Origin: Thermoanaerobaculia bacterium
GTDB lineage: Bacteria; Acidobacteriota; Thermoanaerobaculia; Multivoradales; J023
DNA: 64,000 bases
Assembly (NCBI GenBank): GCA_030431255.1
Contig: JAUIJL010000004.1
Location: 310,001 to 374,000 of the forward strand
Direction: 5' to 3'
Shown here piece after piece: positions 3 to 35,497 of this stretch. Below the pieces are notes generated by a model that was not told the DNA's origin, did no database searches, and saw only the letters and a list, made by a program, of their open reading frames with translations. A program made the translations under genes and the position numbers. Numbering within the stretch: position 1 is the first letter of the stretch; every line of letters starts with the position of its first letter.

Positions 3-884
3 CTTCCGTCCCTAGCGGTGGCCGGTGGGCTCGGCCTGTTGGAGCTCGCCCGCCAGCGTTTCCAACAAGGCCACATGTTCGCCCCGACCCGCTTTCCCGA
101 GGGGATTTGGGACGCCGAGGTCCACGGGCTCAACACCGTTGACGTTCACTTTACGAGTGAAGACGGCACACCGCTTCACGGCTGGTGGATGCCCCACAAT
201 GAAGCCAAGCTGACCGTGGTCTATTGTCACGGCAACTCCGGCAATATCGCCGAGCGAGTGGATGTCTTCCAACAACTGCTACGGCTGAAAGTGAATGTGT
301 TCGCATTCGACTATCGGGGCTACGGACGCAGCGCCGGATCTCCGAGCGAAGCCGGCGTTTTCTCCGATGTGCGCGCAGCCCTGGACTATTCCGCGGAATT
401 CCTCGCCCCGCGGCATCGAACGGTGCTCTTCGGCCATAGCTTGGGTGGGGCGATCGCCATCGACGGCGCGCTCCATCGACCGAATATCGCGGGCCTAGTG
501 GTCCAATCGAGCCTCACTCAGGCTTCGGACATGGCTCGTCACTTCTATCCCGACCTACCCGTTCATTGGATCAGCAGGAATGCCTTCCGGTCGATCGAAA
601 AGGTGCCCGAGCTAAAGATGCCCAAGCTCTTCATCCACGGTCGGGAGGACTTGACCGTCCCTTACCACCAAGGGGAGCGCCTCTTCAGCGCGGCAGCGGA
701 GCCTAAATCGTTTCTACCCATCGCCCGAGCCGGTCACAACGATGTGCACCTTTGGGGCGGCCTGCGCTACTTCAGCCATTTGACCCGCTTCGGCCGGCAG
801 GCGAGGAGGCACGGCGAAACCAGCATAGACGACGATGCTCATCGCCTGCGAACGGCCGGCTCAGCTGTCCAAGTCGAGCCGTAG
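3..884 (+). CDS. alpha/beta hydrolase (BEM46/YfhR-like), 5' partial
   Basis: Serine hydrolase of the alpha/beta fold, related to the membrane-anchored BEM46/YfhR group; substrate unknown. The nucleophile elbow GHSLGG lies at about nt 432-449. The acid is probably the Asp in GREDLTVP (about nt 640) and the histidine that in AGHND (about nt 735). The text before the first GTG (nt 18) stays open to the window edge and reads as a hydrophobic stretch leading into FAPTRFPEG, as in family members with an N-terminal membrane anchor. The real start is therefore probably outside the window. The 3' end overlaps the convergent kinase gene by 24 bp. Family assignment is firm; function is general only. Confidence 0.85.
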   Translation, partial: LPSLAVAGGLGLLELARQRFQQGHMFAPTRFPEGIWDAEVHGLNTVDVHFTSEDGTPLHGWWMPHNEAKLTVVYCHGNSGNIAERVDVFQQLLRLKVNVFAFDYRGYGRSAGSPSEAGVFSDVRAALDYSAEFLAPRHRTVLFGHSLGGAIAIDGALHRPNIAGLVVQSSLTQASDMARHFYPDLPVHWISRNAFRSIEKVPELKMPKLFIHGREDLTVPYHQGERLFSAAAEPKSFLPIARAGHNDVHLWGGLRYFSHLTRFGRQARRHGETSIDDDAHRLRTAGSAVQVEP

Positions 885-3539
885 TTGCTCCAAACGCTCG
901 ACCATCTCCCGGCCGGAGCGCGCCCGTTTCATCTTGTCGGGGTGTAGCTCTCTGGCGAAGAAGTCGACCAAGGGCTGCGGGCAGCCCTCCATGTAGTCCG
1001 TCAGCTTCTCCAATTTCACATCGCGGATCTTCTCCAACACGATCTGAAACGAACGTCCGGTGAAGAGATTCACCCCTGCCAACGACTCCCAAAGCACGAC
1101 GCTGAGGGCCCAAAGATCCACCGACGGCTCCGGGCGGTGCCCCATCACCGCTTCCGGTGACAAATAACCGACCGTGCCCACCAGCTGGCCGGTCGCCGTA
1201 CGGGCAATCACCCAGCTGGCCGTGTTCTGGATTCGAGATCGTCCGTCCAGCTCCTCTTCAACGCCACCGGCTTCGACATCTTGCCGCCAATCCTGGTGAA
1301 TTCGTGCCACCCCAAAGTCCAGAAGCTTGGCTTGGCCGTCTTGGGTGTAGCCGATATTCGAAGGTTTTAGATCTCGGTGCAGGATTCCCACGGAGTGAAT
1401 TTTTTGCAACGCCGAGGCCACGGTTTTTCCCACTTCGATCGCCGCAGCGGGCGTCAAGGGCCGTCCGGCCAGAAGCTGGTCGGAGAGGGTGCCGCCCTTC
1501 AAGAACTCCTGAATCAACAGGGGCATACCTTCCCAGGTTTCGATGCCGTAGATAGCGGCCAAGCCGGAGTCGGTGACCGTCGCCGCGGTACGCGCTTCCC
1601 GATGCAGTCGCATGGCCGCTTCGGGTGAAACTTGCGGCAGGGTTTTGATCGCCACCTCCCGCCCGAGCCGTAGATCCGTGGCCCGATACACCACCGCCAT
1701 ACCACCGGTTCCCAACCTCGATTCGAAGCGATACTGCCCCCGCAGCACGTAGGGAACGACCGTCGGCTCCAGCTCGATCACACATTTCGGACAGCGGTCT
1801 TCCGAAGGCGGATAGACCCTCGAGCAGGCTAAGCATTCCCGGGCGACCTGCTGGAGCTCCGCCGGCCTCTCCGAGATCTCTTGAGCGCTGGGCATCTCCG
1901 GGGTGAGGGACAGATTCGTGGCTGGAGCCTGCTCTTTGAGCTGCAGCAGCTCGATCACCAGACCCGTGGAGGAGCAAACTCCTTTCACCAGATCCCTATC
2001 CTCGGCCGCAAAGGGCTCCTCGCTCTTTTTCCGGCCCAAAGCGAGGATTCCGATCAAATTACCGTCCAGCGCATGGGCCGGCGAAAGCAGCTCCACACTG
2101 CCGTCGACCAACCACTGTTTGTCCGAATCGCTAAGGTCGTGCAGAGGCGAGCGAGGATCGTCGAATTCAACCACCAGGGGCTCCCGACTTCCCTGTAGAA
2201 GGGTCGTGAGCTTGGAAGCGGTGTCCAGAGGCCGAATGATCCCGAGCGGATCGACGTAACGACCGTGGGCAGAGTCCAACGCCAACAGGGAGACTCGGTC
2301 CAAATGCAGCGCCAGATCCACGCCCGAGCCCACCAGTTTCGAGAGCTCGATGAGATTCCGAGTTCCGCGCACCTTCTCCGCCAAGTCCGTCAGCACCACC
2401 CTGGCGTTATATCGGTCGCGAAAAAACCTTCGGTCGATGGCGTCCACCAAGACTCGGCGGAATCGCATCAAAATGATGCCCAACACGGTCAACCCCGTGA
2501 GCAGGATCGCTTTCGTGCCGGTGAATACCTCCACCAACGGACTGTTTCGATTCTGAATGAGCAGGACAACCAGTAAAACAAACGGCATCACGGCAAAAGC
2601 CGTGGCTGAATACCGAGCCAATAAATATTGAATAGCGCTTCGAGCCAGCTGCCGAACGTCCAAAACCCGATTGGCAAGAACGGCATAAAAGGATATGAAA
2701 GGCATGATAAGGATTAATGAATTAAAAGTGAGAAACGTAACTTTGATTCCTTCCGGATCAGTCGGAAAAAACAGTTGCTCCCTAGCAAAGAAGAGCTCCA
2801 AGGAATTCTTGAAAGTTTGCGGCCCAAACCCCAAAACCAGTGCATATCCGAAAAGGCTGACTCTCCTTTTTACCTCCCCAACCGCACCTCTCACCCGATA
2901 GAAGACACCCAGCATGCTCATAAATGCCAAGGGCATGAGGTAATACCAAGCGGTATCCGTCAAGTGCCAGATTCCGATTGTGAAGAAGCCCGCCCGCCCC
3001 GGAAGCATACCCAAGATATAATCCAGCTGGCCCAGTAAAAAGTAAAATCCGCAGATCAGCAAAGACGCGGCCTGGAACGCACGGCGAATTCTTGCTAAAA
3101 CCGGTGGCTCGTAGGTGCCGGGAAAGTACTCCAAAAATCTCCAGGAATACCAGGCCAGAAAGAATTCAAATCTGGTTCGACCCAAAATTTCTGCAACAAG
3201 CTTCAGGTTCGGAACAGCAGACCCAAATCGTAGAATATTCGATGCCGAATATGCACCCGCAGTGCACATCAGAAAGATCGCGAATACTTTCGCTTGAGTG
3301 CTCCGACTCGACCGGAAGGCCCAGGTTCCGAAGAAGGTATAAACCGAGGCCAAGATCACCCAAACATGAAATCGATAGTCGAGCTTGTCGGAGAACCAAA
3401 TGGCGAGGACCAAGTAGGCGGCTATAGAAGCGATAGCCCTGAAGAATAGGAATCCAAACGCAATATGGTCAAATCTTGCGACGCCCCTTGCCCACCTTCG
3501 GCTCTTGGAGCTGGATCGATTTCTCGGAGATTCGCTCAA
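861..3539 (-). CDS. multidomain membrane Ser/Thr protein kinase
   Basis: Residues about 20-300 hold a run of hydrophobic membrane helices, like the sensor part of 7TM histidine kinases. A GAF-like region follows (about 370-530), then a small zinc ribbon (CLAC...CPKC, about 566-587), and a complete Hanks-type kinase domain from about residue 600 to the end. The kinase has the glycine loop GTGGMAVVY, the lysine in AIKTL, the catalytic HRDLKPSN (about 719) and DFGVA. The protein looks like a histidine-kinase sensor module whose output has been replaced by a Ser/Thr kinase. It lies 18 bp downstream of the small gene ending at 3558 and is probably co-transcribed with it. Ligand and targets are unknown. 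Confidence 0.88.
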   Translation of the reverse strand: MSESPRNRSSSKSRRWARGVARFDHIAFGFLFFRAIASIAAYLVLAIWFSDKLDYRFHVWVILASVYTFFGTWAFRSSRSTQAKVFAIFLMCTAGAYSASNILRFGSAVPNLKLVAEILGRTRFEFFLAWYSWRFLEYFPGTYEPPVLARIRRAFQAASLLICGFYFLLGQLDYILGMLPGRAGFFTIGIWHLTDTAWYYLMPLAFMSMLGVFYRVRGAVGEVKRRVSLFGYALVLGFGPQTFKNSLELFFAREQLFFPTDPEGIKVTFLTFNSLILIMPFISFYAVLANRVLDVRQLARSAIQYLLARYSATAFAVMPFVLLVVLLIQNRNSPLVEVFTGTKAILLTGLTVLGIILMRFRRVLVDAIDRRFFRDRYNARVVLTDLAEKVRGTRNLIELSKLVGSGVDLALHLDRVSLLALDSAHGRYVDPLGIIRPLDTASKLTTLLQGSREPLVVEFDDPRSPLHDLSDSDKQWLVDGSVELLSPAHALDGNLIGILALGRKKSEEPFAAEDRDLVKGVCSSTGLVIELLQLKEQAPATNLSLTPEMPSAQEISERPAELQQVARECLACSRVYPPSEDRCPKCVIELEPTVVPYVLRGQYRFESRLGTGGMAVVYRATDLRLGREVAIKTLPQVSPEAAMRLHREARTAATVTDSGLAAIYGIETWEGMPLLIQEFLKGGTLSDQLLAGRPLTPAAAIEVGKTVASALQKIHSVGILHRDLKPSNIGYTQDGQAKLLDFGVARIHQDWRQDVEAGGVEEELDGRSRIQNTASWVIARTATGQLVGTVGYLSPEAVMGHRPEPSVDLWALSVVLWESLAGVNLFTGRSFQIVLEKIRDVKLEKLTDYMEGCPQPLVDFFARELHPDKMKRARSGREMVERLEQLRLDLDS

Positions 3540-4191: not shown

Positions 4192-6123
4192 GTGCAAGAG
4201 CCTTTGTTCGATGCCCTGGAGGGACTTTCCACCGCGGTCTTGGTCTTCGACCAGTCCGCGAGATTGGTTTGGTCAAATTCCGCCGGGCTCGATCTACTCC
4301 AGACCCCCCTCGAGCCGCTCCGCGGCTCAGAAGCTGAGTCCCTGCTCCGCGAGCGCCTCGGCCTGGACGCCCGTATCCTCGAACAGCCACCCACGGAAAC
4401 CCGTGCTGTGGACGCCACGTTGGCCGACGGCCGGAGCGTCAGCTTGCGCGTGAGGTCTCGCGGGCTGACCGACCCAAGCTACCGGTTGCTCTATCTCGAG
4501 TCCGTCGGAGGCATTGAGGAAACCTCAGCTCCCAAGCCGGCTTCCACCGAGCACTGGCAACAAGAGATGATACGCGCGGAGGAAGCGGTTCGAGAGTCCG
4601 AGCTCCGGTACCGGCGGCTTTTCGACCAAAGCCGGGACATCGTTTCGATCAGCGATCACGAGGGTAAGCTGATCGACGTCAATCGCGCCGGCCTGGAGCT
4701 GCTCGGTTACGAGCGCAAGGAGCAGGTCTTGGCCATGGATATCGGCCGAGGGGTTTGGGGCGACCCGGAGGCGAGGAGGAACGTCTTTCGGCAGGCGAAG
4801 ACCCGCGGATACGCAGAATTCGAAACCCTCTTCTCAACCCAGGACAAGGGAGATCGGTGGGTCAGCGGAACGATGGTCGAGATGCGGGACGACCTGGACC
4901 GACCCGAAGGATTCCTGACCATCGTTCGTGACGTCACCGACCAACGGCAAGTCGAGGACCAGCTGCGGCAAAGCCAGAAGATGGAAGCCATCGGTCGGCT
5001 CGCCGGCGGCATCGCACACGACTTCAACAACCTCTTGACCGCCATCACCGGCTATTGCGACTTGCTTTTGGACGAGGCCCCCAATGAGGAGATGCGCTCC
5101 TATGTGCGTGAGATCGAAGCCGCCGGCACCCGAGCCTCGGCCTTGACGGCCAAGCTGCTGACGCTGAGCAGGCGAGAGAAGGTCACACCGAAAACCATCG
5201 ATCTCAACGCCTCGGTGCGCGACCTACAAGGCCTCCTGCGCCGACTGATCGGGGAAGATGTCGAGCTTCGCGTCGAGCTGGAAGCCGAGCCGAGCTTCGT
5301 TCGAGTCGACCCAGGACAGCTGGATCAAACCATCTTGAATTTGGCCGCCAATGCCCGCGATGCCATGCCCAAAGGCGGAAAGCTGACCTTGAGAACGGAG
5401 ACCAGGTGGATCACCGGGCACGATCAGGAGATGACGCCACCCCCTCGCACGGCACAGCTCGAGCCGGGCCCATTCGCATGCCTGACGGTCTCCGATACTG
5501 GAATTGGCATGGACGCTCGTACCCTGAAGCACATTTACGAGCCTTTCTTCACCACCAAAGAAGCGGGCAAGGGAACCGGCTTGGGCCTAGCAACGGCCTA
5601 CGCCACTATTCATCGGTTCGGCGGATCGATCGAGGTGTCCAGCTCGGTCGGCAAGGGCTCGACCTTCAATCTGCTCTTGCCGAGGGTCCAGCGGGAGACT
5701 GATCAAGAGAAGGGCCTCACCGTCCGCGATGCGGCCGAGCTCGCCCAAGGCAGCGAAACGATCCTACTGGTCGAGGACGACGAAACCGTGCGCCACTTAG
5801 TCCGCACCCAGCTTCAGCGCCAGGGCTATCGAGTCGTCACCGCGGAGGATGGGGAATCCGCCTTGCAGAAAGTTGAGGAAACGGAGCAAGGCTTTGAGAT
5901 CGACCTGGTGGTCAGCGATGTGGTGATGCCCGGGATGAGCGGTCCGGCGCTGGCCGCGGAGCTCCGCCGGAACCAGCCCGACGTGCCCATCCTCTTCATC
6001 TCCGGCTATACGGGGTCGTTCATGGTGCAGCACGGATTTTGCGAGGACACGGACGAGGTCCTGCAGAAACCTTTCACCGCCAAAATGCTCGCCGAGAGGG
6101 TACGCGACCTATTGGACCGGTAG
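4192..6123 (+). CDS. PAS-PAS hybrid sensor histidine kinase with receiver
   Basis: Soluble hybrid histidine kinase of 643 residues. An N-terminal PAS-like region (about 5-95) is followed by a second PAS/PAC (about 137-255). The HisKA box GGIAHDFNNLL carries the phospho-accepting His near residue 276. The HATPase domain has DTGIGMD and GKGTGLGL, and the C-terminal receiver has the acidic VEDDE pocket and the phosphorylatable Asp of VVSDVVMP near 576. The GTG start is chosen because AAAGGAGAGG lies just upstream at about 4178-4188. No membrane segment is visible, so the signal is probably cytoplasmic. No cognate regulator is adjacent; it is an orphan phosphorelay component here. Confidence 0.9.
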   Translation: MQEPLFDALEGLSTAVLVFDQSARLVWSNSAGLDLLQTPLEPLRGSEAESLLRERLGLDARILEQPPTETRAVDATLADGRSVSLRVRSRGLTDPSYRLLYLESVGGIEETSAPKPASTEHWQQEMIRAEEAVRESELRYRRLFDQSRDIVSISDHEGKLIDVNRAGLELLGYERKEQVLAMDIGRGVWGDPEARRNVFRQAKTRGYAEFETLFSTQDKGDRWVSGTMVEMRDDLDRPEGFLTIVRDVTDQRQVEDQLRQSQKMEAIGRLAGGIAHDFNNLLTAITGYCDLLLDEAPNEEMRSYVREIEAAGTRASALTAKLLTLSRREKVTPKTIDLNASVRDLQGLLRRLIGEDVELRVELEAEPSFVRVDPGQLDQTILNLAANARDAMPKGGKLTLRTETRWITGHDQEMTPPPRTAQLEPGPFACLTVSDTGIGMDARTLKHIYEPFFTTKEAGKGTGLGLATAYATIHRFGGSIEVSSSVGKGSTFNLLLPRVQRETDQEKGLTVRDAAELAQGSETILLVEDDETVRHLVRTQLQRQGYRVVTAEDGESALQKVEETEQGFEIDLVVSDVVMPGMSGPALAAELRRNQPDVPILFISGYTGSFMVQHGFCEDTDEVLQKPFTAKMLAERVRDLLDR

Positions 6124-30035: not shown

Positions 30036-32117
30036 ATGCCTGTGTATTTGCGTTTTATGCTTCTTGTCGTCTTTTCTTTCTTTGTCGTCTTCAGTGGGGC
30101 CGGCACAGCCGCGGCCTCTGGAGGTGGCGGCAGCGTCACCTTCGACGACATTGCAACGGATCCCAGCTTCGGTCTCAATTACCACCGAACCGAGTCACCT
30201 ACGGAGCTGATCTTCGACCAACTGAAAGCTCAACCCCTCTACACCTTCAATGACGTGCTTCAAACCCCGATCAAGACCCGTGGAGTGCCCGGGGTCGCGC
30301 TCTTCGATGTCGAGCAGGATGGCGATCTCGATATCTACGTCACCAACGGTCCGGGAAGCGCCAACAGCCTATTCCTCAATCAGCTGGCCGATTCGGGGTC
30401 TCTGACCTTTTGGGACGCCGGGATCACCGCGGGCGTCGACGCCACCAGCCAAGATTCCACTGGTGTTTGCTTCGGAGATCTGGACAACGACGGTTTTCAG
30501 GACCTCTACGTGCTCGGCAACAACGAGCCGAACCGGTTGTTCTGGAATCAAGGCAACGGCACCTTTTCCGACATCAGCGTCGCCAGCGGCGCGGACGCCG
30601 GCGCGCGCAGCCGTGCCACCTGCGCTTTCGGCGACATCGACAACGACGGATTGTTGGATATTCTGGTCGGCAACTCCTTCTCGGACTGGTCGAATCAGCT
30701 CGGCCTCTTCATCGAGCCCTATGCGCTGAATCAGCACAATCAGCTATTTCGTAACCTCGGCAGCATGACCTTTGCCGAGGTCACCGCCACCTCCGGTTTG
30801 CTCAACCAAGTCGCCACCGTGCCCGTAGGATTCGGCGAGGCCGGCCTGACTTGGAGCATCGCCATGGCGGACATGGATGTCGACGGCGACGTCGAGGTCA
30901 TTGCCGGAGACGACCAAGGCGGCATTCCCTTCGCGGTCTACGGCGGCGTGGATCGGGGTTTGATTCACATCTTCGACAACGACGGCTCGGGTTTCTTCAC
31001 CGACACCACCCTGAGCGCAGGCACGGACAAACCCGGTCAATGGATGGGGCTGGCGTTCGGCGACCTGGACTGCAACGGCACCATGGACCTATTCGGCTCC
31101 AACTTCGGCGACTACGGCTTCAGCCCACTGCCGATCCCCTACACTCTGGGCGACTCCGCGTCTCGATGGTTCCTGGGCAACGGTGACGGCACCTTCAGCG
31201 ACCCCGGAGTCGGAGATCTCGTCGCCACGCCCTTCGGCTGGAGCAATGCGATCGTCGACTACGACTTGGACGGCGATTCCGACATCGTCTTCCACGGCGG
31301 TTTGGACGTCAGCCCGTTCGTCGACAGCTCCAACGCCGGAGTCTTCCTGCGCAACGAGGGTTGTAGCGCGGATTTTGAATACGATGCCGCGGCGGTCGCC
31401 GGGTCCACGGATCACGGGCGACGCAACGTGCAGGCCATGGCGATCGGCGATCTCAACAACGACGGCTTCCCCGATGTGGTCAGCGCGTCCAACTTCGACG
31501 CTCCGCCGCCGATTCCGCTCACCACCCACGCCTACCAATACGGTGGGCCGTTCGATGCCGACGCGGTTTACGTCGAAGCCTTCATCCCCACCGGCAATCC
31601 CTTCGAATGGACCTGGAGCGGCATCGAGTTTCCCGACGGCTCCTTGGCGGTGGAGCTGAATAGCGCCGGCAACGGCAATCGCGGCATCCGCATTTCCTTG
31701 GAAGGGGGAGCCGGTCGAGTGAACGGTGCTGTCTCCAATCGCGACGGCATCGGCGCAGTGATTCAAACCACGCCCCACCGCGGCCCCACATCCATGGTGC
31801 CCGTGGGCGCCCCGTCCTATACCTCTCAGGGTAGCCTGGAGGTCGCCATGGGCCTGGGTCGAGCCGCCTTTGGAACCGTCGAGGTGGTCTGGCCCGGAGG
31901 GGTCCACAATCGCGTGTACAACGTGGTGCGCGGACGCACCCTCCATCTGCCTGAAATCCCCTGTGACTTCACCGCCCAATGGTCGAGCTTCGGGGAATAT
32001 CGGAGCTGCGTGCGCGACTCCCTGGACGAGTGGAAAAATCTGGGATCCATTTCCGCGTCGGAGAAAGCTCAGCTCTTCGTGAGCGCCCTACGCGCTTACC
32101 TGGATACTCACCACTGA
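30036..32117 (+). CDS. secreted FG-GAP/VCBS repeat protein, CRTAC1 (ASPIC/UnbV) family
   Basis: A 693-residue exported beta-propeller protein. The signal peptide (MLLVVFSFFVVFSGAGTAAA) is followed by many FG-GAP/VCBS-type repeats with calcium-loop patterns such as DVEQDGDLDIYV, DLDNDGFQDLYV, DIDNDGLLDILV, DMDVDGDVEVIA, DLDCNGTMDLFG and DYDLDGDSDIVF. The ASPIC/UnbV domain near residues 540-640 ends in VEVVWPGGVHNR. About 50 residues after it look helical (WKNLGSISASEKAQLFVSALRAYL). Such proteins are surface or extracellular adhesion/calcium-binding proteins; the exact role is unknown. Confidence 0.9.
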   Translation: MPVYLRFMLLVVFSFFVVFSGAGTAAASGGGGSVTFDDIATDPSFGLNYHRTESPTELIFDQLKAQPLYTFNDVLQTPIKTRGVPGVALFDVEQDGDLDIYVTNGPGSANSLFLNQLADSGSLTFWDAGITAGVDATSQDSTGVCFGDLDNDGFQDLYVLGNNEPNRLFWNQGNGTFSDISVASGADAGARSRATCAFGDIDNDGLLDILVGNSFSDWSNQLGLFIEPYALNQHNQLFRNLGSMTFAEVTATSGLLNQVATVPVGFGEAGLTWSIAMADMDVDGDVEVIAGDDQGGIPFAVYGGVDRGLIHIFDNDGSGFFTDTTLSAGTDKPGQWMGLAFGDLDCNGTMDLFGSNFGDYGFSPLPIPYTLGDSASRWFLGNGDGTFSDPGVGDLVATPFGWSNAIVDYDLDGDSDIVFHGGLDVSPFVDSSNAGVFLRNEGCSADFEYDAAAVAGSTDHGRRNVQAMAIGDLNNDGFPDVVSASNFDAPPPIPLTTHAYQYGGPFDADAVYVEAFIPTGNPFEWTWSGIEFPDGSLAVELNSAGNGNRGIRISLEGGAGRVNGAVSNRDGIGAVIQTTPHRGPTSMVPVGAPSYTSQGSLEVAMGLGRAAFGTVEVVWPGGVHNRVYNVVRGRTLHLPEIPCDFTAQWSSFGEYRSCVRDSLDEWKNLGSISASEKAQLFVSALRAYLDTHH

Positions 32118-32235: not shown

Positions 32236-33210
32236 ATGAACGCTTGTCCCGCCGACCCCGGAAAGCAGCTGAAACGCTTCGCCGTAAAGCTTCTCTGCCT
32301 GTGGATGGGCCTATCCGGTCCGCCGATCTTCGCCCTTCAAGAGATTGCTGGTGAGCGTCAAACTATCGAGGCGCGTCAGCAAGCCGAAGCTGACGAAGAG
32401 GCGCGAGAGCAGGCGAGGATCAAACGAAGGATCGCTGAGCACCTGGAAGGGTCGTCCTCGACGGCGGCCCCGTCGAAACGCCCGGCACCACCGGAACCGG
32501 CCCCGTCGAAACGCCTGGCACCTATCTCGACAGCCCTTGCGACGACCGTCTTCGGCGCCGTCCAAGAGACCGAAGCCCGTCCCACACCACCAACTCCCCC
32601 GAGCTTCGCCGGATCTAGGGCACCTGGCGCCGAAACGCCCGGCACCTCAGCCGGCCGCACTCCAACCGTGCCGGCAGCCTTCGCCAAGGCCGATCTGGAT
32701 TCAGTGCCTTTCCTGCCGTCCTGGAACCTGATCTCGCTCCCCAAAACCCCAACGGTGAGCAACCCATCCGATGTCTTCGCACCCATCGACACCCGCTATG
32801 CAACAGTCTGGTTCTACGACGCCTGCGACCCCTCCGCCGACAAGTGGAAAGCCTACGACCCAGCAGATTCAGGCGGCTCCACTCTTGCGGCCATCGACCC
32901 AACCCAAGGCCTCTGGCTCGACGCCACCGCGGCCGGTGCCCTGCCTCCACCGGCGAGCTACCTGCGACCAGCTCATGGCAGCTGTGCACGGGCTGGAATC
33001 TCATCGGCTTCCCGGCGGCGGGGCAAAACCGTCATATCAAGACCGCTCTCCAGAACATCCGGGGCAAATACTCGATGGTCTACGGCTACGACCCGTCCGA
33101 CGCCGAGGACCCCTGGGCCATCCACGACGTCACCGTGCCGGATTGGGCCAATGACCTCCAGACCTTCGAGGTCGGCAAGGGTTATTGGATTCTCGTCACC
33201 GAGGACGTGA
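32236..33210 (+). CDS. N-terminal part of a frameshifted RHS/GWNLI-repeat surface protein
   Basis: This reading frame starts with a signal-like helix (KLLCLWMGLSGPPIFA). A charged coiled segment (IEARQQAEADEEAREQARIKRRIAEHL) and a Pro/Ala-rich linker with repeated APSKRPAP units follow. The first WNLISLP-type repeat starts near residue 165 (nt 32728). It ends in GLWLDATAAGALPPPASYL. After about nt 32965 this frame becomes nonsense, while the next frame continues with SWQLCTGWNLIGFP, the start of the second repeat. One missing base or two extra bases around 32955-32975 would reconnect them. Only residues up to about 245 are meaningful here. Confidence 0.7.
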   Translation: MNACPADPGKQLKRFAVKLLCLWMGLSGPPIFALQEIAGERQTIEARQQAEADEEAREQARIKRRIAEHLEGSSSTAAPSKRPAPPEPAPSKRLAPISTALATTVFGAVQETEARPTPPTPPSFAGSRAPGAETPGTSAGRTPTVPAAFAKADLDSVPFLPSWNLISLPKTPTVSNPSDVFAPIDTRYATVWFYDACDPSADKWKAYDPADSGGSTLAAIDPTQGLWLDATAAGALPPPASYLRPAHGSCARAGISSASRRRGKTVISRPLSRTSGANTRWSTATTRPTPRTPGPSTTSPCRIGPMTSRPSRSARVIGFSSPRT

Positions 33211-35417
33211 CCCTAGAAATCCCCAATCAAGGCGACGCCCCGACGGTGGCCTTCACCACGCCGATGGACCTCAGTGAGGTCACCGAGCCCACGGATTTGC
33301 TGGGCGACGTGTCGAGCCCGATGCTCGACTTCTGGCGCGTGTCGAGCCGCTTGATCGGTCAAACCGATTGGCAAGAGCTGGCCCGCGGGTCCCAGCCTCG
33401 CGCGGGCGAAAAGCTCGCCGGCTTCGACCCCACCCTTCTGCTCAACGGCCTGCACGAGCTCAAGCTCGAAGCGGTGGATAGCTTGGGTCGCATCGTCGAG
33501 GACCGTATCTCCGTCGTCGTCGAGGGGCGGATGAAACTCGGCCATTTCACTCTCAGCTTCGTGGACCTACAGATCCCGCTCTCGGGCCTCGACACTCGGA
33601 TTCTTCGCACCTACGACAGTCGTGACAAGCGCCTCGGTGACTTCGGGGTGGGCTGGACCCTCGACATCCGTCAAGGCTTCTACCAAAACAACCGTCCACC
33701 GGGCGATGGCTGGCAAATCCCAGCGACCTCCGGCCCATGGGGTCTGCCGTGCTCCGTGGTTCAAGAGACCAAAAGCCACCTCACGACGGTCCGACTCTCC
33801 GACCAAGAGGTCTACCGCTTTCGATTGGTCTTGAAGCGTCCAAGCACCCTGATCGGCGGCTGCATCGCCGACGCTGAATTCGAGTGGGTCGACGGCCTGC
33901 TGCCGGGCACCACCCTGGAAATCCTGGGCAACACCGAGGTGTTCTACCCCAACAACAGCGACGCCGTGCTCGACCGGCACACCCAGCAACCCTTCGTGCC
34001 CGACGACGTCAAGCTCACGACCCGCGACGGCCGCATCTTCCACCTGGACCTCCAAGACGGCGTCACCCATCTGGAAGACCTGCACGGCAACACCCTGGAG
34101 ACCACGTCCGACGGCATCACCCATTCCAGCGGCCGGGGCGTGGAATTCATCCGAGGGGCGGACGGCAAGATCGAAGAAATCATCGATCCCAGGGGCAAGC
34201 GCAGCGTCTACAGCTATGACGTACAGAACGACCTAATCCAGCACACGGATCGCAGCGGCGCCGAGACCCAATTCAGCTACCGAGATCACTATCTCGAAGA
34301 CATCCACAACGCCTTCGGCATCCGCGCCGTGCGCACGGAATACGACGAGCAGGGCCGCTTGGCTCAGGTGCTCTACCCCGACGGCACCCACACCCGCAAC
34401 ATCTTCGACGCCGAGGGACGAACCGTGGCGTCGGTGGATCAGCTGGGCCGGACCACCCGCTACACCTACGATCCAGTGGGTCGCCTGCTGACCACGACAT
34501 ATCCTGGCCCCGACGAGCCCGGTCTCGAAAAACCCACCGTCACCAACGAATACGACCGAGCGGGCCGATTGGTGAAAGTCATTGACGAGCGGGGCAACCC
34601 CACCCGCTACGTCTACGACGATGCCGGCCGCCGGACCAAGGTCATCGACGCGCTCGACCAGGAAACGATCTACATCTACGACGATGCGGGTCGCCTGGAG
34701 TCGGTCATCGACCCGCGGGAATTCACCACCACCTATCGATATGACGAAGTCGGTCGCCAACGGTTCGTGATCTCCCACGACCAAACTTACTTCTTCCTGG
34801 CTCGTCCAGCTCAGGTCACGGAAGATCTGATCAGGCAGCATGGCGGTGACGTTTATTATATTTTCGAAATTTCTGAGGTGAAAGAAATGCCAGGTTGTCC
34901 GGCTGAGGATTGCATCGAAAGAGTCCTGGAAGGTGTAAGTAAGTATCTTGGTCTCCATGGGTTTGAGAAGGAGCCCATCTTCCGGCACAACAGAAAAAGT
35001 AGACAATGGTATTTCTACCGGAGCTCCGTGAGTTGGAAAACAGACGCTGTCCGGCTAATCATGCGGACCGGCAATCATACGCTACTATCTGTGGAAGTCT
35101 CCGTCTTCATCAGTCCAGAGCTCGTGCAGTCTGATGAAGACCTATTTGATGGGAAATACTCGGTGGATGGAACTTCTGTGCCGTTTCTAGCAGGAAAGCC
35201 CGATCTCTACTATCGATTGCCTTGGCTTAGGACCGATGGATCATGCAATAGCCTTTCGAAGCGTATCGTTGGCGACATCGGTTCGATCAAGGATTGGTTC
35301 GATGCATATGCAACCATCGAGCAGGCGGTGGCGCTGATTGAATCTGGACAAGCTGTAAACGCCACACCGAGAGGATTGGCGTATCGAATCTTGAAACGGC
35401 AGACGGCAGGTCAGTGA
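32844..35417 (+). CDS. RHS/YD-repeat protein fused to atypical C-terminal domain (5' end out of frame)
   Basis: Authentic sequence begins at about nt 32973 with SWQLCTGWNLIGFP (second GWNLI repeat, continuing to GYWILVTEDVTLEIP). An Ig-like spacer follows, then the RHS entry motif KLGHFTLSFVDLQIPLSG...RTYDSRD...DFGVGWTLD, and YD repeats (EYDEQGRLAQVLYPDG, TYDPVGRLLTT, VYDDAGRRTKVID, IYDDAGRLESVID, RYDEVGRQR). The RHS core signature that normally precedes a toxin tip is absent. At about nt 34780 the YD repeats run into a low-GC tail of about 205 residues. The first usable codon (GTG 32844) is outside the real frame, so the gene is either frameshifted or affected by a sequencing error. Confidence 0.75.
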   Translation: MESLRPSRFRRLHSCGHRPNPRPLARRHRGRCPASTGELPATSSWQLCTGWNLIGFPAAGQNRHIKTALQNIRGKYSMVYGYDPSDAEDPWAIHDVTVPDWANDLQTFEVGKGYWILVTEDVTLEIPNQGDAPTVAFTTPMDLSEVTEPTDLLGDVSSPMLDFWRVSSRLIGQTDWQELARGSQPRAGEKLAGFDPTLLLNGLHELKLEAVDSLGRIVEDRISVVVEGRMKLGHFTLSFVDLQIPLSGLDTRILRTYDSRDKRLGDFGVGWTLDIRQGFYQNNRPPGDGWQIPATSGPWGLPCSVVQETKSHLTTVRLSDQEVYRFRLVLKRPSTLIGGCIADAEFEWVDGLLPGTTLEILGNTEVFYPNNSDAVLDRHTQQPFVPDDVKLTTRDGRIFHLDLQDGVTHLEDLHGNTLETTSDGITHSSGRGVEFIRGADGKIEEIIDPRGKRSVYSYDVQNDLIQHTDRSGAETQFSYRDHYLEDIHNAFGIRAVRTEYDEQGRLAQVLYPDGTHTRNIFDAEGRTVASVDQLGRTTRYTYDPVGRLLTTTYPGPDEPGLEKPTVTNEYDRAGRLVKVIDERGNPTRYVYDDAGRRTKVIDALDQETIYIYDDAGRLESVIDPREFTTTYRYDEVGRQRFVISHDQTYFFLARPAQVTEDLIRQHGGDVYYIFEISEVKEMPGCPAEDCIERVLEGVSKYLGLHGFEKEPIFRHNRKSRQWYFYRSSVSWKTDAVRLIMRTGNHTLLSVEVSVFISPELVQSDEDLFDGKYSVDGTSVPFLAGKPDLYYRLPWLRTDGSCNSLSKRIVGDIGSIKDWFDAYATIEQAVALIESGQAVNATPRGLAYRILKRQTAGQ
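34790..35417 (+). other. low-GC immunity-protein-like module fused to YD repeats
   Basis: From about 34790 the GC content drops sharply and rare-looking codons (ATA, AGA, TAT) appear. The translation changes from YD repeats to a globular protein. The segment KYLGLHGFEKEPIFRHNRK...WYFYRSSVSW...RLIMRTGNHTLLSVEVSVFI recalls DUF4304-type immunity proteins (weak, by eye). GAGGTG at 34875-34880 precedes an in-frame ATG at 34887. A free 176-residue protein could therefore be translated from inside the rhs frame. Probably the scar of a deletion that removed an RHS core and toxin tip. Confidence 0.5.
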
Positions 35418-35497
35418 ACCGGTTGTAACTTGTGCTGGGTCGAAACGACCCAACCAACCGACGAGCTGGTTCGAGAAAGCTCTAGGGCTTGCTAGCA

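Follow-up and report, generated by a model that had tools for sequence, protein, structure and literature searches.

Polymorphic toxin systems and their immunity genes are known to come apart. Polymorphic toxin genes are described as exchanging cassettes at their 3' ends, and polyimmunity loci as strings of immunity genes without toxins (PMC3482391). In the T6SS arrays of Vibrio cholerae, orphan immunity genes persist once their effectors have been displaced, and old immunity genes are retained (PMC5361080). Orphan rhs-CT/rhsI modules and rhs rearrangement are described for Salmonella and Dickeya (PMC3967940, PMC3150448), where an orphan CdiI is reported to be made even though the orphan toxin is not (PMC3150448).

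Here we analyze an rhs copy within a 64,000-nucleotide stretch of DNA (the window; C49:310001-374000, GC 0.62) from a Thermoanaerobaculia genome of 10.19 Mb in 54 contigs, 98.83% complete. The locus is very probably an rhs scar. Our best reading, which we regard as reasonably probable, is that of an rhs pseudogene scar that has kept a probable orphan immunity gene.

The rhs body, its frameshift and its truncation

The preliminary description placed the start of the rhs gene at GTG 32844. That start is not upheld, as the homologous 5' end sits in another frame, in ORF 32236-33210, and the gene begins at 32236. DNA homology with five paralogues begins at 32260-32282, inside this ORF. The 5' part of the gene (32236-32945, plus strand, frame 1) encodes a hydrophobic N-terminal segment, recognized by eye, and the first 'SWNLIS' domain. 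When six paralogues were aligned over 32700-33200, a one-base length difference from all six was found at 32943-32946 (plus strand), where frame 1 passes into the frame of the originally reported ORF. The rhs gene is therefore broken by a frameshift near 32945, barring a sequencing error, and no unbroken frame runs from the native start. Because the frameshift puts them out of frame, the approximately 34 residues after GTG 32844 are not real protein.

The remaining rhs body (32946-34784, plus strand) is defined by family matches and paralogue identity, and contains a second 'GWNLIG' domain, a weak DUF6531-like region (PF20148, 3.6e-4, under its cut-off) and YD repeats (RHS_repeat PF05593, 5e-37 in six stretches; TIGR01643, 1.2e-25). 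Query residues 1-279 share 87-91% amino-acid identity with five paralogues. Against RHS_core (NF041261) the window frame scores 57 bits, where the cut-off is 2000 bits. From stop to stop, the frame that ends at 35417 spans 932 codons, a length that could be taken to indicate a functional short Rhs protein whose C-terminal domain is of a novel, core-independent kind. We give that idea scarcely any credence in view of the frameshift relative to six paralogues and of the seven family genomes, in which no second copy of the architecture was found.

Two segments of the window, 32260-34362 and 34337-34785, match separate paralogue stretches that lie 777-780 bp apart in all five paralogues spanning the site (C1, C29, C40L, C40R, and C48; distances obtained by subtraction of alignment coordinates). 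The BLAST segments overlap by 22-26 bp, and the scar, which is in frame, lies at 34337-34362 on the plus strand. Such a gap in the YD array is the pattern that a deletion between two YD repeats would be expected to leave. The earlier reading of the sequence had overlooked both this gap and the frameshift.

Paralogue DNA homology then stops at 34783-34785 in the four loci that reach this point (C1, C29, C40R, and C48, the last with two copies), defining a junction at 34783-34786 (plus strand), to the right of which there is no homology to the paralogues. Relative to the longer paralogues, the window copy lacks approximately 1.6 kb of YD repeats and RHS core, together with any toxin tip; no RHS core follows its YD repeats, since homology to the core-bearing paralogues ends at 34785. 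The abrupt end of the YD repeats without a core, as first described, is thus borne out, and the longer copies in the same genome lend good support to the proposal that recombination or deletion took away the toxin-bearing end and left a scar. Truncation at 34785 is directly established, as are the YD deletion and the frameshift.

Since rhs copies break the assembly elsewhere, with contigs C27, C53, C40, and C48 all ending inside them, the junction at 34785 might be an assembly error between two rhs-like regions. However, exact matches of the rhs region in the window to eight paralogue loci extend over at most 78 bp, at 33074, and over only 44-45 bp for loci whose best match falls in the YD part, whereas the sequence beyond the junction is unique in the genome. 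We consider an assembly error very unlikely.

On its upstream side the rhs copy adjoins a gene for an FG-GAP/UnbV_ASPIC protein (30036-32117). It was considered as an rhs partner and rejected: because tblastn found no homologue of it beside the own-genome rhs paralogues, it appears to be a chance neighbor. Downstream, an 80-bp gap (35418-35497) separates the end of the rhs frame from the end of a convergent gene that we take to be SpoIID-like.

Paralogues, their cassettes and a second scar

The YD region gives 56 matches in its own genome, its own place included. Copies of the same subfamily are found on contigs C1, C29, C40 (both ends), C48 (two copies), C53, C27, and C12, and the C35 copy is a more distant relative (42%). 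Contig ends interrupt the copies on C53 and C27, both of those on C40, and the first on C48. The C1 and C29 copies, open from stop to stop for 1910 and 1884 codons, share DNA homology for approximately 1.6 kb past the equivalent of window position 34785, through the RHS core, after which their tips diverge. In C1, C29, both C48 copies, and one relative (G002:C15), the core is followed by a low-GC tip of 163-224 residues with a pI of 8.7-10.1, and then, in the position of an immunity gene, by a low-GC ORF that is 144-226 codons long and has a pI of 4.5-5.3 except in C29 (8.5). As called, these immunity-position ORFs start between 13 nt before and approximately 41 nt behind the end of the tip, although their true starts may differ.

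Other features of these loci are as follows. The C29 immunity-position ORF (L030:5029-5631, minus strand) is small GTPase-like (PF00025 Arf, 3.4e-5, 23.8 bits against a cut-off of 22.3). Behind their immunity-position ORFs, C1 (L029, approximately 4585-4830, minus strand) and C29 (L030, approximately 4729-4956, minus strand) each carry a displaced rhs fragment, and that of C1 seems to have internal deletions of its own. On C48, the two tandem rhs copies are separated by an ORF (L033:3555-4052, minus strand), presumably integrase-like, and the 5' end of the second copy has been lost or replaced.

The C12 copy is truncated. Its 617 bp of rhs homology stop inside the gene and are followed by sequence with a GC of 0.52 that contains two ORFs (L036, approximately 547-1277, minus strand, identified by homology and GC). 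The two ORFs are homologues (1 of 5000 shuffles scored as high), the first seemingly without its 5' half. Neither matches Pfam, and one has a weak match (0.0011) to a PHROG of unknown function. C12 shows the same outcome as the window: the toxin end is gone and small low-GC ORFs are retained. These ORFs may well be immunity genes, and they are unrelated to the window tail (620 and 769 of 1000 shuffles scored as high). On the other side of the C12 rhs scrap is an ORF that we assume to be transposase-like.

At E ≤ 1e-20 the rhs subfamily is present in four of the seven family genomes and was not found in the other three, G001 (same genus), G004, and G005. Open frames in the family search span 932 codons in the window, 1009 and 1675 in the C40 copies (cut by contig ends), 755 and 476 in further copies at contig ends, 275 in C12, and 1497-2349 in all others. 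Conservation of the same fusion in many species, which the preliminary description had set against its own proposal, is not seen in this family search; apart from the window copy and the C12 scrap, uncut copies have 1497 codons or more. No rhs match was found beside the SpoIID-like gene in any of six relatives over the approximately 10 kb considered, and these rhs-free flanking regions indicate that the window rhs locus is a local gain that later decayed.

The low-GC tail

The tail occupies 34785-35417 on the plus strand, 210 codons and a stop in frame with rhs, and is here considered a probable orphan immunity gene, possibly truncated at its 5' end. Its low GC, part of the original description, is confirmed at 0.50, compared with 0.63 in the YD part and 0.62 in the window; by codon position it is 0.55/0.44/0.53. 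The tail is like the immunity-position ORFs of the paralogues in size, GC, codon-position profile, and end position, with the tip gone. Its pI, 6.1 for 210 residues or 7.7 for 176, is intermediate, below the values of the basic tips (8.7-10.1) and above those of the immunity-position proteins, most of which are acidic. As reported, the plus strand of the tail has an SD-like GAGGTG (34875-34880) and, after a 6-nt spacer, an ATG (34887-34889), which would permit free translation of 176 residues. With a fixed motif list, such a site precedes only two of the 44 in-frame starts in the reported ORF, this ATG among them. The plus strand between 34600 and 35600 yielded no promoter-like site, and no further immunity-sized ORF lies in the 80 bp between the tail and the SpoIID-like gene.

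The 34 codons between the junction and this ATG (34785-34886) are coding-like on the plus strand in the frame of the tail only. Their codon log-likelihood is +5.9 in the tail frame and -5.0 and -6.9 in the other plus frames, with +4.6 in frame 0 of the minus strand, under a codon model trained on 11 cassette genes that include the tail itself. Base shuffling gives a chance of 0.136 for a stop-free run of this length, before a factor of 1 in 3 for the frame. This suggests that ATG 34887 may not be the native start, and that the native product may have been longer, its start having been lost in the deletion. It is also a weak point of the immunity reading because a toxin tip would be in frame too.

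Accordingly, the tail could be a toxin tip, or part of one, joined straight to the YD repeats; its own immunity gene would then have been lost since nothing was exported any longer by the broken rhs gene. All 210 codons of the tail continue the frame of the YD repeats, including the coding-like stretch before the ATG, and its length is near that of the paralogue tips (163-224 residues after the core). Against this, no immunity ORF follows the tail, its pI is lower than that of every one of the five tips measured, a good SD and ATG lie inside it, and it matches no toxin family. On balance a toxin tip seems improbable.

Sequence searches did not assign the tail to any family. Nothing credible was found in Pfam, NCBIfam, PADLOC, or PHROGs, and no Imm family of Pfam matched at E values up to 10. 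A PDB sequence search gave one match at E 0.15, and plasmid and phage sequence searches gave none. Among 59 relatives, 148 class genomes, and 396 phylum genomes (overlapping sets), only noise-level matches were obtained besides the tail itself, and scans of genome contigs (with the tail and with an RHS core alignment) and of viral contigs revealed no relatives. The tail is single-copy within its own genome, and this uniqueness is directly established. The resemblance to an immunity protein claimed in the preliminary description accordingly finds no support in the family, PDB, and PHROG searches. A clear match to a toxin or nuclease family, which would have told against that claim, was likewise not found in the libraries searched, although an unknown toxin would also give none. 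No intact rhs-toxin-tail locus was found in any genome set searched.

Weak matches to the tail (tblastn/HMMER) occur in eight other genomes of the 396 at E ≤ 0.05 and in six others of the 59 at E ≤ 1, and chance alone would be expected to give more across 396 genomes. Five of these loci were aligned and four open frames inspected; by eye they resemble unrelated genes or spurious frames, as does an open frame in G121, and they were rejected as homologues. The DUF4304 family (PF14137), suggested previously for comparison, was also rejected. By eye the tail seemed to share a pattern with one DUF4304 protein, but hhalign gave a probability of 0.3 over 23 columns, between 190 and 484 of 1000 shuffles equalled its score when it was compared with each of four family members, and its HMM rank was 459 of 2001. 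The tail has no Pfam match to DUF4304, and the genome has none at 1e-4. Elsewhere in the phylum, locus L092 (G252:C7) has an rhs gene with core and tip and, behind it, a DUF4304 match that contains an in-frame TAG, possibly an rhs-DUF4304 pair.

Single-sequence structure models of the tail are poor (pLDDT 59.7 for 176 residues and 37.4 for 210 residues). With the low-confidence 176-residue model, Foldseek gave a best E of 0.70 and no match at E ≤ 0.001, and the best VIA match, to actin capping protein, had a Z of 6.4, which is below the noise level of that program.

The lack of a tail homologue in any search would also be expected if the tail were an unrelated ORFan, or a fragment of incoming DNA, that landed by chance beside the broken rhs gene and is unconnected with the toxin cassette. 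However, its size, GC, and position fit the immunity-position ORFs of the paralogues, and the C12 scar shows the same arrangement. We regard a chance arrival as doubtful. Judged from its place, size, GC, and the lack of an ORF behind it, the tail is probably an immunity gene. The rhs scar with a retained immunity gene is favored by the longer paralogues, their matching cassette ORFs, the SD and ATG, the C12 scar, the displaced fragments on C1 and C29, and the rhs-free SpoIID flanks of six relatives. Speaking against it are the lack of an immunity family or fold match, the intermediate pI, the coding-like codons before the ATG, the lack of a promoter-like site, and the lack of an intact rhs-toxin-tail locus. 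The original proposal that the scar kept protection therefore stands for loss of the toxin end, given the paralogues, whereas the immunity identity of the tail is as yet a best guess from position.

Under the favored reading, the window locus would be a decayed copy of a dispersed rhs family that suffered two losses. The first would have been a deletion between YD repeats, and the second a non-homologous deletion that took the toxin tip, the RHS core, and what was left of the YD array. This latter deletion may have ended inside the cassette, so that the YD repeats were fused in frame to the 3' part of the former toxin-immunity pair. The surviving piece would most likely be the immunity gene, perhaps with some 5' sequence missing. 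If still expressed, it would be translated alone from the SD and ATG at 34875-34889 and not as an Rhs fusion, because the frameshift near 32945 severs the rhs frame from its start. Its product could act as a cytoplasmic orphan immunity protein against kin or neighbors bearing the lost toxin. A more speculative extension, which we think rather unlikely, is that the tail founds an unrecorded immunity family, that loss of the toxin end with retention of immunity is recurrent in this genome (the window and C12), and that broken rhs copies form a scattered store of immunity genes.

Comparison with known toxin-immunity remnants

Should the tail be an immunity gene, the locus would document the disarming of a polymorphic toxin locus with protection kept, and the orphan sequence could serve as bait for an unknown toxin-immunity pair. 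Several longer paralogues and a second scar in the same genome make the course of decay readable within one genome. In the literature searched we found no description of an rhs-immunity fusion of this kind, which does not prove its absence. The outcome itself is of a known kind, as indicated by orphan CdiI production (PMC3150448), retention of immunity genes (PMC5361080), and immunity arrays (PMC3482391). Scars of this type are known, and the window is a tidy example and not a surprise.

As in the V. cholerae T6SS orphans, an immunity gene would have outlasted its toxin; there, the rearrangement is thought to be partly due to illegitimate recombination (PMC5361080). Unlike those genes, which are recognizable through homology to intact pairs, the tail is without known relatives and continues in frame from an rhs remnant. 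Polyimmunity loci are arrays (PMC3482391), whereas the window has a single possible, unclassified immunity gene, and the C12 scar has two. Both here and in Salmonella and Dickeya, rhs genes have variable C-terminal toxin/immunity ends that recombine. In the Salmonella and Dickeya orphans the toxin end is kept and the start is lost, whereas the window copy has kept the start side and lost the toxin end (PMC3967940, PMC3150448).
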